Assembly: GCF_014360585.1 (NCBI RefSeq) | Contig: NZ_JACIXG010000016.1 | Span: 1 to 64,000, forward strand | Reading direction: 5' to 3' | DNA from: Nocardioides sp. | GTDB lineage: Bacteria; Actinomycetota; Actinomycetes; Propionibacteriales; Nocardioidaceae | Length of the DNA: 64,000 bases | In this document: positions 3,560 through 25,173 of the stretch, piece by piece | Numbering within the stretch: position 1 is the first letter of the stretch | Layout: each line of letters starts with the position of its first letter | Notes under the pieces: model-generated | The model's database searches: none | The model's input: only the letters and a program-made list of their open reading frames with translations | What the model was told of the DNA's origin: nothing | Program-made: the position numbers and the translations under genes

Positions 3560-4354
3560 TCAGTCGGCGGGCGCCCGCGGCGGGGTCTGCTCGCCGGCTT
3601 CGACGAGCACGTCGATGTGGTTGCTGGCGGGCGGGAGCGGGCAGGTGGCGTGGATCGTGTAGGCACAGGGCATGTTGGCGGCGCGGTTGAAGTCGATGAC
3701 GGCCTTACCGTCGGCAGGCGGCGCGACGGCGAGCTGACGGCAGGCGGCGTAGGTCGTGACGCCGCTGGTCTCGTCGGTGAACAGCAGCCACAGCTCGCCG
3801 TCACCGCCGTCGAAGGCGATCAGCCGCTGCGGGCGGCCACCCACCTCGAACGCCACCTCCCCCACGGCGTCGATGACGCTCGAACGACCCTCGACCACGG
3901 AGCCGACCGAGATCGGCCGGCTCGTCGCGTAGGGCGTGAAGGCCGCTTCCACCCGCCACGCCGGGTCCGGAGCGTACGTCGGGGTGCCGGTGTAGTCGCG
4001 CAGGAACGGGCCGTCGGGCTGCCGCGGCCGGAGGACCGGGGTGCCGAAGCGGTCGGCGACCTCGACCGTCCCGGCATCGAAGGTCGCGATCACTCCCACA
4101 GGATCGACTTCCCCGAAGACGTACCGACCGGCAAGGGTGGTGCCACCGAGCTCGAGCCACTCGCCCGGACCGAGCTCGACCACGGCACCCTCCGGCCCCT
4201 TCGACCAGACACCCGGGACCCCGGGGAACCGCTGCGGCTTGGCGCTCAGCCAGTGCAGCCCGGTGATCGCCAGGAAACCTTCCGGGCTTCTCAGCTCGGC
4301 CTCCCGCCCATCGCGCCACCGTTGCCAGGCCTGCTCGAAAGTCACGTGCCGCAC
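3560..4354 (-). CDS. DUF1684-family protein
   Basis: 264 aa, paralogue of 64-861. Confidence 0.8.
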   Translation of the reverse strand: MRHVTFEQAWQRWRDGREAELRSPEGFLAITGLHWLSAKPQRFPGVPGVWSKGPEGAVVELGPGEWLELGGTTLAGRYVFGEVDPVGVIATFDAGTVEVADRFGTPVLRPRQPDGPFLRDYTGTPTYAPDPAWRVEAAFTPYATSRPISVGSVVEGRSSVIDAVGEVAFEVGGRPQRLIAFDGGDGELWLLFTDETSGVTTYAACRQLAVAPPADGKAVIDFNRAANMPCAYTIHATCPLPPASNHIDVLVEAGEQTPPRAPAD

Positions 4355-4411: not shown

Positions 4412-5227
4412 TCACCCGTCGGCCGTGTGCGCCATGCTGCGCACCCTCCTGAGCAGGCGGATCGCGCCGCGCGCCGCGGTGACCAGGAGTAGATACCAGA
4501 TCGCGGCCACCACCAGCAGCGGGATGATCAGGTGGTTGCGCTCGTCGAGCGCCTGGACCACTCCCAGCAGGTCGGTGATCGCGAGCACGGAGACCAGGCT
4601 GGTCGCCTGGATCGTCGTCACCAGGACGTCACCGAGCGCGGTGAGCCGGTCACCGCTCGAAAGAGCCCTCGCTGCGTACGCTCCCAGCGCCAGCGCCAAC
4701 CCGACGATCGCCGCGTGGACCGGTGTGACCAGCCGGACCGCGTCGATGTGCACCCCCGGGATCCCGAAGGTGATGTCCGGGAAGACCAGCGCGATGTTGC
4801 TCCACAGCAACAGCTGGACGAGCACCGGGATGCCGCCGAAGACCCAGACGTACGCCGCCGCGATCTCGCGCAGCACCGGGTTGCCCGATCTCTCCATCCT
4901 GCCCACGGCGAGGCCGAGCGCCGACGCCAGTGCGAAGACCAGCACGGTGAGCCGGACGGTGAGCCAGACTCCGCCGAGGACATCGGGATGGAGCAGGTGG
5001 CCGGTGACCTCGCCCGGGAGCAGGTTCTCGTTTCTCATCAGGCTCCACAGGAACCTCAGAAGAAGGAGGGTGAGAAGGACAGCGATCGCCCATTCGACCG
5101 TGTTGGTCTCGACACGCCTCCGCCTAGCGGCTCCGGCGGCTCGACCAGCGCTCCCGTCGGTCGAGCCGCGAGCGCTAGCGAGCGTGTCGAGACCAACACA
5201 GTCGTCGTCGGCAGCGGTCTCGGTCAT
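4412..5227 (-). CDS. Amino-acid-type ABC transporter permease with a repeat-encoded N-terminus
   Basis: Several TM segments; residues ~10-43 are encoded by the dispersed repeat at 5100-5199. Confidence 0.65.
   Translation of the reverse strand: MTETAADDDCVGLDTLASARGSTDGSAGRAAGAARRRRVETNTVEWAIAVLLTLLLLRFLWSLMRNENLLPGEVTGHLLHPDVLGGVWLTVRLTVLVFALASALGLAVGRMERSGNPVLREIAAAYVWVFGGIPVLVQLLLWSNIALVFPDITFGIPGVHIDAVRLVTPVHAAIVGLALALGAYAARALSSGDRLTALGDVLVTTIQATSLVSVLAITDLLGVVQALDERNHLIIPLLVVAAIWYLLLVTAARGAIRLLRRVRSMAHTADG
5100..5199. repeat. Dispersed inverted-repeat element (family 1), copy A
   Basis: GTGTTGGTCTCGACACGC...CGGCTCGACC / GGTCGAGCCG...GCGTGTCGAGACCAACAC. Confidence 0.85.
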
Positions 5228-5323
5228 CGCGGTGAACGATCGCCTCGCTCGGTGACCAACAGGTTGCGACCAGCGAGCCGCAGGCGCAACTCACGCACTC
5301 AAAAGACCAACACCCTGGGCCGG

Positions 5324-8300
5324 TCAGGAAGCTTGGTTCTGACATTCCCTCATCGAGCTCTGCCAGTCGCTGAGCCGCCCGATGATCCAGACGAACGGCT
5401 GGGTGCGACCCCCGAGGACACACGTGCCCTTGATGACGCTCTCGAGCAGGCTCTCGACATCCCGCGAGCACAGTGCAGCCACCGCCTCGTCATCGAGCAG
5501 CCGAAGGGAACAAGCGGGGGTCTCGGCGGATACGGCGGCTCCTCGAGTGGCCCCCTGCTCGTCGATCCGGATCACGACGTCCTCCACCTCACCGGGCGAT
5601 CCGACCGTGACCGCGAGGCTCGGCACCGCTGAGGGCAGATCGGCCAGGGCGGTGTTCAGGTAGGCCGTGAACGCGTCGGCCCAGTCCGTCGCGCTGTGTC
5701 TCGAGGCCTGCGGATCAGCCGCCGGGAGCCGCGGCTCGCCGTCGTTGGATGCGTCACGACGGGTGACCTCTGCCTCCGCCTCGATCAAGGCCTGCAGAGT
5801 CTTGTCGACGTCTTCGCGGGTGTGGGACGCCGAGCAGATGAATCTCAACCGGCCTCGGCTGCGCTCGACGATCGGGTAGGTCACCGCCGCGGTGTGGACG
5901 CCCCGCTTGAAGAGGCCCCGGGCGATGGCACGAAGGTCCTCCCCGTCGGAGAAGTGCGGGGTGATGATGAGCCCGTCTCCGGTGCCGAGCTCGTAGCCCG
6001 CGTCCGAGAAGCGTTCCCTCATGTAGTCCGCGGTGTCCCAGAGTCGTTCTCGCAGCGCGTCGCTCTCGCCCACCCTGCGTAGTGCAGCGAGCGCTGCCGC
6101 GATGTCGGCGGGAGAGATGTTCGCCTGGAAGATGTAGGCCCTCGCCGATGTCCTCAGCAGAGCGATGTGAGGCTCACGAGCGGCGACCACACCGCCGATG
6201 CTCCCGAGTGCCTTGCTCAAGGTCGTGAGAAGGAAGTCGACCTGCTCGGTGACTCCCTCCGCGGCGCACAGCCCGGCACCTCGCGCTCCGTACAGGCCGA
6301 AGGAGTGAGCCTCGTCGACGAGGACGAGCGCGCCGAACTCCTTCGCGGTGGGCACGATGTCCCGTAGCGGGGCTGCCCCCTCCCCCATGCTGTACACGCT
6401 CTCGAGGACGACCAGGGTCGTACGGTAGGGCGAGGACTCCGCCTCGAGCACGGCGCGCAGGTCGGAGGCATCGTTGTGTCTGAACGTCCGCACTCGCGCA
6501 CCGCTCAGGCGAGCCCCGTCCACGAGCGACGCGTGGCAGAGCTGGTCCATCACCACGACGTCCCCCTCGCCGACCACCCCCGCGATGGCGCCGAGGCTCG
6601 CGGTGAAGCCGGTTGGGAAGAGGCAGGCGGACGGCTTGCCCACGATCTCGGCGAACTCCCGCTCGAACTCCAGGTGGAGGTCGGTCTGGCCTGAGCCCGC
6701 AGCGGATATCCCCATCCCCGTACCGAAGCGGCTGAGAGCGTTCCGTGCCTCCTCGATGATCTTCTCGTCCCGGTTGAATCCGAGGTAGAGGTTGGTGGTC
6801 CACATGATCGCCTCGCGCACCTCGCCGGTGTGCACGTCGACGACGGTGCCCCGCTCGGCGCTCCCGGTGCGCACGACCTTGCCGTAGGGATCCAGACCCG
6901 AGCGGGACAGGAGGCCTCTCATGTGCTGCACGAGCGCACCCTTGTCGGTCGCGGACCAGGCCGGAATCTTGGCGGCGAAGGCCGGTGGATGTCCCGACTG
7001 GACCTGTGCCTGGAAGGCGGCGAGCCGGGCCGCGGCCCCGACGCCGTTCGGGTGCTCATCCGTGTCTCGGCGACCGGACGTACGGCCGAGGACCGCCTGG
7101 AGTGCGTCGGCGGCGTCCTCGGGAGTCATCTGCTCGACCAGCGTGGACGACGGCAGGCTCGTCAGCAGCTCCTGCGACAGACGTACGGTGAGCTCGGCGA
7201 TGTCCAACGAATCAAGGCCCAGCGATTCCAGCGACTCATCCGGCGGGACCGATTCGGCGTCGAGCGAACCGAGCAGCACGGCCGCCTCTCTCCTGACCGT
7301 GTCGAGCAGCGACGACCGCCGATCTTCCTTCGTCTTCACGCCAGGGGCCGCCTCGGCGCTCCCGTGCCGTGCGCGGGGAAGCCGGTGGCGGTCCACCTTG
7401 CCGTTGGGCAGTCGCGGCAGCTCGGTCAGCGGCATCACGACGTTCGGAATCATGTACTTCGGCAGGCGGTCCGCCAGGTGGGCACGCACGGCAGCGGCGG
7501 TCACGGACTCGCGCCGGGTCTCCACGTACGCCACCAGGAGGCTCTTGTCTTCTGCCGGGTCGACGACCACCGCCGCGTCGTCGACTCCGGGCATCGACTC
7601 CAGCACCACCTCGATCTCATCCAGCTCGATCCGGTGGCCGCGGATCTTGACCTGCCGGTCGACTCGGCCGAGGAACTCGAGCTCTCCTGCTTCGGTCCAC
7701 CGGCACAGGTCTCCGGTCCGATAGAGCCGTCGCTCCGGGATCGGGCCGTCTTCCTTGAGCTCCGGAAACCGCTGTCGAGTCCGCTCGTCGTCGTGGAGAT
7801 ATCCCCTCGCCAGCTGGTCACCGGCCAGGAAGAGCTCACCCGCCACGCCGTCGGGAGCCGGCTGCAGGAGCTCGTCCAGCACGTAGGCCCGAGCGCCGGC
7901 GACCGGGCTGCCGATCGTGATCGACTCGGCCCCCGCATCGACGACGCCGGCGGTCGTGAACACGGTGGCCTCCGTCGGGCCGTAGACGTTCAGGACCCGC
8001 GGCGGACGTGGCGCAGCATGCAGATCCGCGACGAGGGAGGCAGTGAGCACCTCGCCCCCGAGCACCACGCATCGAACCCCGGCCGGCAGCGGTCCGGCCG
8101 CGAGCAATGCCTTCATCGCGGAGGGCACCATGATGGTCGTGCGCACCCGATGCGCTCCGGGCAGCTCACGCAACGCGAGCACGTTCTCCGACAGCACGAC
8201 CGTCCCGCCGAGCATCAACGTCCCCAAGATCTCCATGACCGAAGGGTCGAAGCAGACCGAGGCACCCGCCAGAACTCCGGCCAGGTCCTCCTCGTCGAGC

Positions 8301-8905
8301 AACTGGCGCATGGCCTTCGTCATCGCGACGACGCTCCGGTGCTCGACCGACACACCCTTGGGGTTCCCTGTCGACCCCGAGGTGTAGATGACGTACGCAA
8401 CGTCACCGGCCACAGGATCCGCGCTCGACGTCGGCCGGCGCTCCGGGATCGAGCGAAGGCGCAAGATGTCAGCTGCTGCCGAACACAGCTCGGCCGTTTC
8501 GTCGCCGTCGACGATCACCGCGACGACCCGGGAGTGCTCGACCATGTAGCGCACCCGTTCCGACGGATAGGTGGGGTCGAGGGGCACGTAACCGCAGCCG
8601 GCTCGCAGGACCCCCAGCAGAGTTGCGACCAGCTCCCACGTGCGGCCCAGACACACCCCCACGAGCGATCCCGGCGCCACACCCCGGGCGACCAGCTCAT
8701 CGGCGACCACCTGCGCTCGGGCACGCAGCTGCTCATAGGTGATGTCGACCGCCCCGTCGACGACCGCCGTCTGACGCGACAGACGCGATGCCTGGGTGTC
8801 GAACAGCCCCCAGATGGTCTCCTCGGATTCGCCACCTACGCCCGGCACATCCATGTCGTCGTGTTCGTCGTGGCGCATTTTCTGCTCCCAAGTGATCGCG
8901 GTCAC
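5324..8905 (-). CDS. NRPS-like adenylation / carrier protein / alpha-oxoamine synthase (PLP) fusion
   Basis: 1193 aa; A-domain motifs (YIYTSGSTGNPKGV, VYGPTEATVF, TGDLCRW, LPNGKVDRHRLP), carrier LGLDSLD, AOS motifs (GTGMGISAAGSG, LVDEAHSFGLYGARGAG, TLSKALGSIGG). Confidence 0.9.
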   Translation of the reverse strand: MTAITWEQKMRHDEHDDMDVPGVGGESEETIWGLFDTQASRLSRQTAVVDGAVDITYEQLRARAQVVADELVARGVAPGSLVGVCLGRTWELVATLLGVLRAGCGYVPLDPTYPSERVRYMVEHSRVVAVIVDGDETAELCSAAADILRLRSIPERRPTSSADPVAGDVAYVIYTSGSTGNPKGVSVEHRSVVAMTKAMRQLLDEEDLAGVLAGASVCFDPSVMEILGTLMLGGTVVLSENVLALRELPGAHRVRTTIMVPSAMKALLAAGPLPAGVRCVVLGGEVLTASLVADLHAAPRPPRVLNVYGPTEATVFTTAGVVDAGAESITIGSPVAGARAYVLDELLQPAPDGVAGELFLAGDQLARGYLHDDERTRQRFPELKEDGPIPERRLYRTGDLCRWTEAGELEFLGRVDRQVKIRGHRIELDEIEVVLESMPGVDDAAVVVDPAEDKSLLVAYVETRRESVTAAAVRAHLADRLPKYMIPNVVMPLTELPRLPNGKVDRHRLPRARHGSAEAAPGVKTKEDRRSSLLDTVRREAAVLLGSLDAESVPPDESLESLGLDSLDIAELTVRLSQELLTSLPSSTLVEQMTPEDAADALQAVLGRTSGRRDTDEHPNGVGAAARLAAFQAQVQSGHPPAFAAKIPAWSATDKGALVQHMRGLLSRSGLDPYGKVVRTGSAERGTVVDVHTGEVREAIMWTTNLYLGFNRDEKIIEEARNALSRFGTGMGISAAGSGQTDLHLEFEREFAEIVGKPSACLFPTGFTASLGAIAGVVGEGDVVVMDQLCHASLVDGARLSGARVRTFRHNDASDLRAVLEAESSPYRTTLVVLESVYSMGEGAAPLRDIVPTAKEFGALVLVDEAHSFGLYGARGAGLCAAEGVTEQVDFLLTTLSKALGSIGGVVAAREPHIALLRTSARAYIFQANISPADIAAALAALRRVGESDALRERLWDTADYMRERFSDAGYELGTGDGLIITPHFSDGEDLRAIARGLFKRGVHTAAVTYPIVERSRGRLRFICSASHTREDVDKTLQALIEAEAEVTRRDASNDGEPRLPAADPQASRHSATDWADAFTAYLNTALADLPSAVPSLAVTVGSPGEVEDVVIRIDEQGATRGAAVSAETPACSLRLLDDEAVAALCSRDVESLLESVIKGTCVLGGRTQPFVWIIGRLSDWQSSMRECQNQAS

Positions 8906-8982
8906 GCTCCGTGGTGGCGAAGATCCTAGTGGCGCGGCCGAGATGTTCCTTGAACGCTTGGAACACCGCTGGGCCCCAAAAG

Positions 8983-9020
8983 ACCAACACCCGCCCGGGT
9001 GGGGCCGGGCGGGTGTTGGT
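8983..9020 (-). terminator. Rho-independent-like terminator after the LVIVD-repeat gene
   Basis: Perfect 16-bp stem ACCAACACCCGCCCGG-gtgggg-CCGGGCGGGTGTTGGT, followed on the minus strand by TCTTTTGG. Confidence 0.75.
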
Positions 9021-9031
9021 GCTCTCTGGGC

Positions 9032-10531
9032 TCAGTAGGAGGGCTGAGCCTGCACGTTCAGCTCGTCGAACCTGACCTTCTTCGCCGAGGCGACCCTTGG
9101 GTCGCGCAGGTCGAAGACGTCGAAGCCACGCTGGATCTCGTTGGAGTAGATGTAGCCGTTGTAGTAGTAGGTCGACCACGGGCCGGCGATGGTCGTGGTG
9201 TCCTCGAAGGGACCGCGGTCGAACCAGGCGATCTCCTTCGGGTTGGCCGAGTCGGTGAAGTCGAAGACGGAGATGCCGCCCTGATACCAGGCCTGGACCA
9301 TGATGTCCTTGCCCTTGACCGGGATCAGCGAGCCGTTGTGGGCGACGCAGTTCTCGGTGTTGGACTGGGTGCGCGGGATCTTGTAGTACGACTTGAAGAC
9401 CAGGTCGGTGCCCTCGATGTCGTAGATGCCGTTGGCGCCCCTCTTGGGACCGACCTCCGGGTTGCAGGTCGCCGCGCCGCCACCGCCGAGCTCGTCGGTG
9501 AACACGACCTTGGTGCCGATGTTGTTGAAGGTGGCCGAGTGCCAGAAGGCGAAGTTCTCGGTGTCCCGGACCCGCTCGGTCACGACCGGGTTCTCGCGGT
9601 CGGAGATGTCCATCAGGATGCCGTCGCCCATGCACGCACCGGCCGCGATGTCCTTGCTCGGGTAGGTGGTGATGTCGTGACAGCCGGCGGTGTTGGTGTA
9701 GCCACCGTCGGGGAAGAGCACCGGCTCGTTGACCACCGCGGCGGTTGCCGGTGCCTTCGTCGGGATCTTCACGACGCTGATCTTGTCGTGGGGCGGCTGG
9801 CAGTCGGGGAACTCCGGGCGCGGCCCGTAGGAGGAGACGTACGCATAGACGGCCTTGCCGTCCTTGCTCGGCGCCAGCGAGTGGGTGTGGGAGCCGCACT
9901 TGGTCTCGACCGCCGCGACGTAGGCCGGCTGTGCCGGGTTGCTGATGTCGAAGACCCGGATGCCTTCCCAGGACTCCTTGATCGCCGCCGACTGCGCGAC
10001 GTTGTCACAGGTGTTGTTGCTGCGGCTGGAGTCGACGGAGAGGACGAGCAGGTCGCCGTGGACCGAGATGTCGTTCTGCGCGCCCGGGCACACGACCTGG
10101 GTGACCAGCTTGGGCTTGCTGGGCTTCTTGATGTCGATCACGTTGAAGCCGTTGTAGTTGCCGGCGAATGCGTAGTGGCCCTGGAACGCCAGGTCGCTGT
10201 TGAGCGCGCTGGTCGGCGTGAACGCCCCCGACTTGGGGAGGTTCGCGACCAGGTGCAGGTTGGGGGTGCCTTCGGCCTCTCCGGCCTCCACGGCCGGGTT
10301 GTTGACGCCGAGCTTCGCGATGTCGTTGCCCGGAGCACAGGCCGAGGCGAAGTTGTCTCCGGCCGCGGCCAGGATCTTCTTCTCCGCCTCGGTGCAGCTG
10401 GGCTGGGGAGCGGCGCTCTGGGAGCCGTGCGAGTGGGACTCGTCGGCCGAGGACGGGGCGGCGACGGCCAGCCCTCCGGCGACGATCATGGCCGACGCGA
10501 CTGCGGCCAGGATGTGGATAGGACGTCTCAT
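9032..10531 (-). CDS. Secreted LVIVD-repeat protein
   Basis: Signal-peptide-like N-terminus, repeated LVIVD/IRVFDIS-type beta-propeller motifs. Confidence 0.75.
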   Translation of the reverse strand: MRRPIHILAAVASAMIVAGGLAVAAPSSADESHSHGSQSAAPQPSCTEAEKKILAAAGDNFASACAPGNDIAKLGVNNPAVEAGEAEGTPNLHLVANLPKSGAFTPTSALNSDLAFQGHYAFAGNYNGFNVIDIKKPSKPKLVTQVVCPGAQNDISVHGDLLVLSVDSSRSNNTCDNVAQSAAIKESWEGIRVFDISNPAQPAYVAAVETKCGSHTHSLAPSKDGKAVYAYVSSYGPRPEFPDCQPPHDKISVVKIPTKAPATAAVVNEPVLFPDGGYTNTAGCHDITTYPSKDIAAGACMGDGILMDISDRENPVVTERVRDTENFAFWHSATFNNIGTKVVFTDELGGGGAATCNPEVGPKRGANGIYDIEGTDLVFKSYYKIPRTQSNTENCVAHNGSLIPVKGKDIMVQAWYQGGISVFDFTDSANPKEIAWFDRGPFEDTTTIAGPWSTYYYNGYIYSNEIQRGFDVFDLRDPRVASAKKVRFDELNVQAQPSY

Positions 10532-10661
10532 GGGGGGTCGCCTTCCGAGTCGACTGCCGTGCGGATGAGCCACGGGCCTGTCGATTCTAGGGAAATCCCC
10601 TTCCTCCGACGGCGAGAATGAATAAGTTGACTACCCTGCGTACGCCTCGGAAGGCAGGTCC

Positions 10662-24819: not shown

Positions 24820-25173
24820 TCAGTTCTCCAGGACGACCATGGCCGAGGCGATCCCGGCATCGTGGGAGAGCGAGAGGTGGACGGTGACCACGCCGAGCTT
24901 CGTGGCCTGCGCCAGCACGGTGCCGCGGAGCTCGAACCGCGGCTGGCCGGACGACTCCGAGATCACCTCGGCGTCGTGCCACTCCATCCCCACCGGCGCG
25001 CCGAGCGCCTTGGCCAGCGCCTCCTTCGCGGCGAACCGGGCGGCCAGCGAGGCCATCGGCTTCGTCGCCTCGGCCGGGGTGAACAGGCGCTCACGCAGCC
25101 GCGGCGTACGCTCCAGCGACTCCTCGAAGCGTCCGAGGTCGCAGACGTCGATCCCGACTCCGAGGACAGCCAT
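24820..25173 (-). CDS. acpS: Holo-ACP synthase
   Basis: [27 protein letters not shown]. Confidence 0.95.

Follow-up and report, generated by a model that had tools for sequence, protein, structure and literature searches.

Introduction

The CoA-dependent alpha-oxoamine synthases (AOS) SPT, KBL, AONS and ALAS share their fold, PLP lysine, stacking histidine and decarboxylative Claisen-like chemistry with the AOS domain of the synthase described here, but they are free-standing enzymes that use acyl-CoA, whereas this domain shares one chain with activation and carrier domains of its own. An adenylate-forming ligase and an AOS are likewise joined in one chain in BioWF, which unlike the synthase is a pimeloyl-CoA ligase of the biotin pathway without a carrier domain (PMC9544090). 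Aminoketones for secondary metabolites are made by the AOS enzymes KtmB (ketomemicin) and Alb29 (albogrisin), the latter described with acyl-CoAs and L-glutamate (PMC11906848). In the PigH-like and RedL-like prodiginine enzymes, which occupy neighbouring branches of our AOS tree, the AOS uses a carrier-bound acyl group; in contrast to the synthase, they belong to multi-gene clusters, handle PKS-derived acyl chains, lack an A-T pair that would supply the AOS directly with an amino acid, and have no SCP2 domain described. KtmB and Alb29 also differ from the synthase in that neither is, to our knowledge, fused to an A-T unit. ATRed, the minimal NRPS of Xenorhabdus indica, resembles the synthase as a one-protein NRPS-like enzyme with a reactive amino-carbonyl product that leads to a pyrazine, but it ends in a reductase that yields an aminoaldehyde and has neither an AOS nor a second amino acid (PMC7586950).

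Proteins with the same A-carrier-AOS order as the synthase were tabulated in silico by Milano et al. in 2013 as A-CP-PLP2 proteins annotated AOS, without cluster or product, examples being A1ZVW4 of Microscilla marina and A3ZWL3 of Blastopirellula marina (PMC3870968). A1ZVW4 was classed there as a generic activator of amino acids, and no gene cluster was found for it; the proteins appear as table entries only, and neither a C-terminal domain nor their distribution, mobility or product is described (PMC3870968). Judged by their description in that table, A1ZVW4 and A3ZWL3 possibly belong to the same family as the synthase. The A-CP-AOS layout has thus been known since 2013, and other carrier-linked AOS enzymes are known, whereas the SCP2 domain and the solitary, mobile behaviour appear to be new and the single-gene, cross-phylum, SCP2-tailed form appears undescribed. 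A close characterised homologue with a known product, which the preliminary description of this locus had named among the findings that would refute it, was looked for and none was found in the literature covered, which takes in only a minority of subscription journals.

Here we analyse the gene at 5324-8905 of a Nocardioides sp. window, by which we mean the whole stretch of DNA examined, 64,000 nucleotides in length. Our main reading, to which we give a probability of roughly 0.6, is that the encoded synthase would constitute a self-contained, horizontally mobile one-enzyme pathway that condenses a hydrophobic alpha-amino acid with a small amino acid, with loss of CO2, to a 1,3-diamino-2-ketone.

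Results

Domain architecture of the synthase

The gene and its domains, with the evidence on which each assignment is based, are as follows.

5324..8905, minus strand: whole gene, A-T-AOS-SCP2-like protein, 1193 aa from GTG 8905 (ORF list and Pfam)
7391..8803, minus strand: adenylation (A) domain, residues 35-505 (Pfam PF00501/PF13193, TIGR01733, pocket code in 28 relatives)
7100..7300, minus strand: carrier (T) domain, residues 536-602, serine S566 (Pfam PF00550; S566 invariant in 28 relatives)
5762..6943, minus strand: AOS domain, residues 655-1048 (Pfam PF00155, alignment with 3a2b, residue table)
5330..5692, minus strand: predicted SCP2-like domain, residues ~1072-1192 (AlphaFold, Foldseek against the PDB, purifying selection)

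The order is A domain, carrier, PLP-dependent AOS and C-terminal domain, the first three being given by Pfam through matches to AMP-binding (residues 35-370, 255 bits), AMP-binding_C (residues 430-503), PP-binding (residues 536-602) and Aminotran_1_2 (residues 700-1040, 145 bits), and no condensation domain was found in a Pfam search of the 1193-aa protein. The preliminary description had proposed an A-T-AOS megaenzyme in a single protein of this length, with an LGLDSLD phosphopantetheine site and a full PLP AOS domain; the open reading frame and the Pfam and TIGR domains bear this out, as do S566, which lies within LGLDSLD and is invariant in 28 relatives, and the intact AOS catalytic set described below. 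An in-frame ATG at 8878 is preceded by a GGGAG ribosome-binding site and, because it follows this motif, the first ~9 residues of the open reading frame are probably untranslated. Judged by the ribosome-binding site and by comparison with the relative in Nocardioides G015, ATG 8878 is more likely than GTG 8905 to be the true start, which would give a protein of ~1184 aa. The AlphaFold model of the full-length synthase was poor (pLDDT 70) and was left out of any reading of domain contacts.

The adenylation pocket is nearly constant across the family

The A domain scored 395 bits against the amino-acid adenylation profile TIGR01733 (cut-off 317), and the solved structures most closely related to it are NRPS domains that activate amino acids. 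Anchoring on motifs A3-A5, we located the ten pocket residues as D220, P221, M224, M259, V281, G283, V307, V315, F316 and K503, that is, DPMMVGVVFK, in accord with the pocket D-P-M-x-V-G-V-V-F-K that had been read earlier by hand. D220 and K503, the equivalents of Asp235 and Lys517, are present in 28 of 28 relatives, and all 28 full-length members, from Actinomycetota, Bacteroidota and Pseudomonadota, conform to the code DPMx[VIF]G[VLA]V[FY]K, in which the position-278 equivalent alone is free to vary (M, V, A, T or G). Such a near-constant code in actinobacteria, Bacteroidota and proteobacteria argues for a single substrate. The Asp and Lys suggest that this is an alpha-amino acid and, with the other pocket positions hydrophobic, we infer a hydrophobic one. 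We know of no pocket code close enough to DPMMVGVVFK to name the substrate. The code lies about as near to the known Ile codes as to the Trp codes, and naming the substrate was dropped as unsafe. In the carrier domain that follows, the G-D-S-L of the GxDSL motif is invariant among the same 28 relatives.

The most divergent member, in Pseudoalteromonas sp. T1lg23B (L029, 9797-13588; also in G828), is 45% identical, carries the code DPMAFGVVFK, sits on a very long branch and adjoins heavy-metal-ATPase and MerR-like genes; its substrate may differ from that of the rest of the family.

The AOS domain is catalytically complete and closest to serine palmitoyltransferase

The active-site residues of the AOS domain, namely the PLP lysine K898, the stacking histidine H791, D864/H867 and the C-terminal Arg of the GRLR motif, align with the catalytic set of serine palmitoyltransferase 3a2b, the closest solved structure (E 2e-65), and among the relatives there is little or no variation at the PLP Lys, the stacking His, the DE[AS]H motif or the GRLR Arg. 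Against the equivalog profiles the domain scored strongly yet below each cut-off (SPT 306/500, bioF 303/426, KBL 291/460, ALAS 234/339), and it is therefore an AOS domain but none of these named enzymes. In a tree built with paralogues from six genomes, the synthase family forms a single clade on a long branch, grouping with SPT, PigH-like and RedL-like sequences apart from KBL and BioF (92/89), a placement to be taken with caution given the long branches and the fact that the paralogue labels are our reading of sequence and domain order. In ThAOS, V79 controls the choice of amino acid, and KBL enzymes have Val at this position (PMC11906848). At the equivalent position the synthase has Ser734 and the SPT used for comparison likewise has Ser, a weak hint at serine or alanine as opposed to glycine; on this one residue and the closeness to SPT, L-serine or L-alanine is more likely than glycine as the amine donor. 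Where SPT and KBL have a conserved loop Arg (S-R or V-R), the synthase family has Ala; one BioF compared (L104) also lacks the Arg.

Streptomyces oceani, which has a member of the synthase family, also encodes a PigH-like and a RedL-like AOS (L096 and L106, contig C120) ~8 kb apart, which suggests a prodiginine-type cluster around these two genes.

The C-terminus is predicted to adopt an SCP2-like fold

The ~120-aa C-terminus had previously been left unassigned. It is indeed a real domain, kept in every family member across phyla with invariant P, L, L, C, G, F and W residues, but it can now be given a fold. Pfam failed to name it, the region from residue 1050 to 1193 yielding only scattered weak matches in the 28 members and the SCP2 profile matching in none of them. 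AlphaFold modelling of the C-terminus with the 28 relatives gave a confident model with a mean pLDDT of 85, and ~90 or more across most of the core, and Foldseek against the PDB returned UbiJ-SCP2 as the top match (E 7e-5, probability 1.00), followed by alkylsulfatases and then eukaryotic SCP2 proteins. The best 38 matches are all SCP2 proteins or alkylsulfatases, which have a C-terminal SCP2 domain (probability 0.94-1.00), with moderate TM-scores of ~0.4-0.65 to the SCP2 structures. According to the model, the C-terminus is thus an SCP2-like fold that has diverged beyond profile detection. SCP2 domains bind hydrophobic ligands, which suggests that this domain holds a side chain or the product. 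We found nothing relevant on SCP2 domains in NRPS enzymes in the literature covered, and we know of no SCP2 domain in an assembly-line enzyme that acts as an in-chain product chaperone.

The synthase gene is gained or lost alone

In the window, the synthase gene lies between the gene at 9032-10573, which we read as LVIVD-repeat-type, and an ABC permease gene at 4412-5227. In Nocardioides G011 and G001 both flanking genes are present, with only ~150 and 117 bp, respectively, between the matched coding stretches, and blastn breakpoints delimit the following segment.

5275..9031, no strand assigned: gain-or-loss segment of one gene (blastn breakpoints; present in the window and G015, absent from G011 and G001)

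This segment is replaced by 86 and 66 bp in G011 and G001, while G015 is collinear with the window. The empty site indicates that the synthase was gained or lost on its own, as one gene. The GC content of the insert, 68.4%, equals that of the window (68.4%) and carries no mark of recent foreign origin. The amino-acid-type permease pointed out by the preliminary description does adjoin the gene, but it is unrelated to it: it occurs without the enzyme in G001 and G011, is therefore not its partner, and is an older resident of the locus, unlinked to the synthase. The earlier observation that no other biosynthetic gene is adjacent extends to the whole family, which is orphan in every clade. When the flanks of 47 loci (about 41 distinct genomes, some being duplicated) were clustered all-against-all, no neighbour family was common to more than two of 14 clade bins, and the flank families shared by two clades were distant common genes or antisense artefacts.

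The permease itself (minus strand) is an ABC amino-acid-type permease of an older transporter locus, and a related permease is found further along in the relatives (G015:C44:265094 and G011:C11:124376).

The family is sporadic, has moved horizontally and is under purifying selection

Genome mining for the A-T-AOS architecture with the C-terminal domain, as had been proposed, recovered full-length relatives across phyla, 45-83% identical and all with the C-terminus, in Nocardioides, Streptomyces, Prauserella, Bacteroidota, Pseudoalteromonas, Microbulbifer, Lysobacter and Janthinobacterium. The distribution across the sampled genomes is sporadic: 2/37 in the genus sample, 2/395 in the class sample, 5/292 in the Fulvivirga order sample and 22/109 in the Pseudoalteromonas sample, with 1/297 in the Bacteroidota phylum sample, that one being the query genome itself. 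In the tree of full-length proteins, Lysobacter and Janthinobacterium group with actinobacteria in a 100/100 clade, away from Pseudoalteromonas, and Chitinophaga is nested inside Sinomicrobium; both placements require horizontal transfer. Among plasmids, no record covered 80% of the query. The AOS (dN/dS 0.05-0.15), A (0.12-0.32) and SCP2 (0.23-0.40) domains are all under purifying selection, and the short linker before the SCP2 domain gave 0.83 when two Nocardioides were compared.

Discussion

Based on the domain order, we hypothesize that the A domain would adenylate a hydrophobic alpha-amino acid and load it onto the T domain, which a PPTase of the cell would have converted to the holo form. 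A second small amino acid, taken up free by the AOS domain and more probably L-serine or L-alanine than glycine, would be bound there as the external aldimine and deprotonated; it would then attack the carrier-bound aminoacyl thioester with loss of CO2, so that the condensation itself would free the 1,3-diamino-2-ketone from the carrier with no need for a thioesterase. The SCP2-like domain would most likely bind the hydrophobic side chain or the product, either shielding the reactive aminoketone or passing it on. Alpha-aminoketones can dimerise to dihydropyrazines; for the synthase, the diamino-ketone and any dihydropyrazine would follow only from the chemistry of the family.

An SCP2 fold is typically lipid-binding, and the top fold matches here are UbiJ-SCP2 and alkylsulfatases; serine palmitoyltransferase is the nearest characterised AOS by sequence, and PKS-AOS sphingolipid pathways are known (PMC12134224). 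These points would suit an A domain whose substrate is a fatty acid, an aryl acid or some other non-alpha-amino acid, with the SCP2 domain carrying a lipid and a sphingoid-like or aryl mono-aminoketone as the product. We consider this unlikely, since all 28 relatives have the equivalents of both Lys517 and Asp235, the latter being the residue that binds the alpha-amino group, and since both the TIGR01733 score and the solved A-domain relatives speak for amino acid activation. That the synthase is instead one module of a scattered NRPS/PKS pathway, its acyl partner or downstream enzymes being encoded elsewhere, is also improbable: the genome does hold 36 other AMP-binding matches, several within large ORFs, and one of the contigs with such matches (C119) bears a weak PF01648 PPTase match, but the same protein is solitary in unrelated genomes with no common neighbour, moves as a single gene and has no condensation domain.

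It is also conceivable that the substrate of the PLP domain is the amino acid held on the carrier, reached through a T-bound aldimine leading to racemisation, elimination or decarboxylation, and that the domain performs no Claisen synthesis, as the loaded group probably has a free alpha-amine and the conserved loop Arg of SPT and KBL is Ala in this family. This we hold to be very improbable, because the domain clearly belongs to the CoA-family AOS with its catalytic set intact, the thioester electrophile that AOS chemistry requires is provided by the neighbouring T domain, and the loop Arg is missing from a BioF as well.

Returning to the preferred diamino-ketone pathway, a substrate pocket nearly invariant across phyla makes one conserved product likely, and study of the synthase could uncover a widely shared small molecule. 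As a speculative extension, possible but doubtful, the gene might be a portable pathway, exchanged among at least three phyla, for a diffusible diaminoketone or dihydropyrazine acting as signal or antibiotic, with the SCP2 domain as in-chain product chaperone. Single-gene natural-product enzymes of this kind are easily overlooked by cluster-finding programs. In the synthase, activation by an NRPS unit is coupled to the irreversible formation of a C-C bond and to an SCP2-like domain, a combination that could be a gain for biocatalysis, where the use of AOS enzymes is now limited by their requirement for acyl-CoA substrates.

Other features of the window

An AcpS/PPTase-type PF01648 match at 24895-25161 (minus strand) is a candidate activator of carrier domains, and a further PF01648 PPTase match lies on host contig C80. 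The proteins encoded at 64-861 and 3560-4354 (minus strand) are paralogues, ~51-52% identical in cross-comparison with Nocardioides turkmenicus, which has kept both; a guaB-like gene and another gene separate them.
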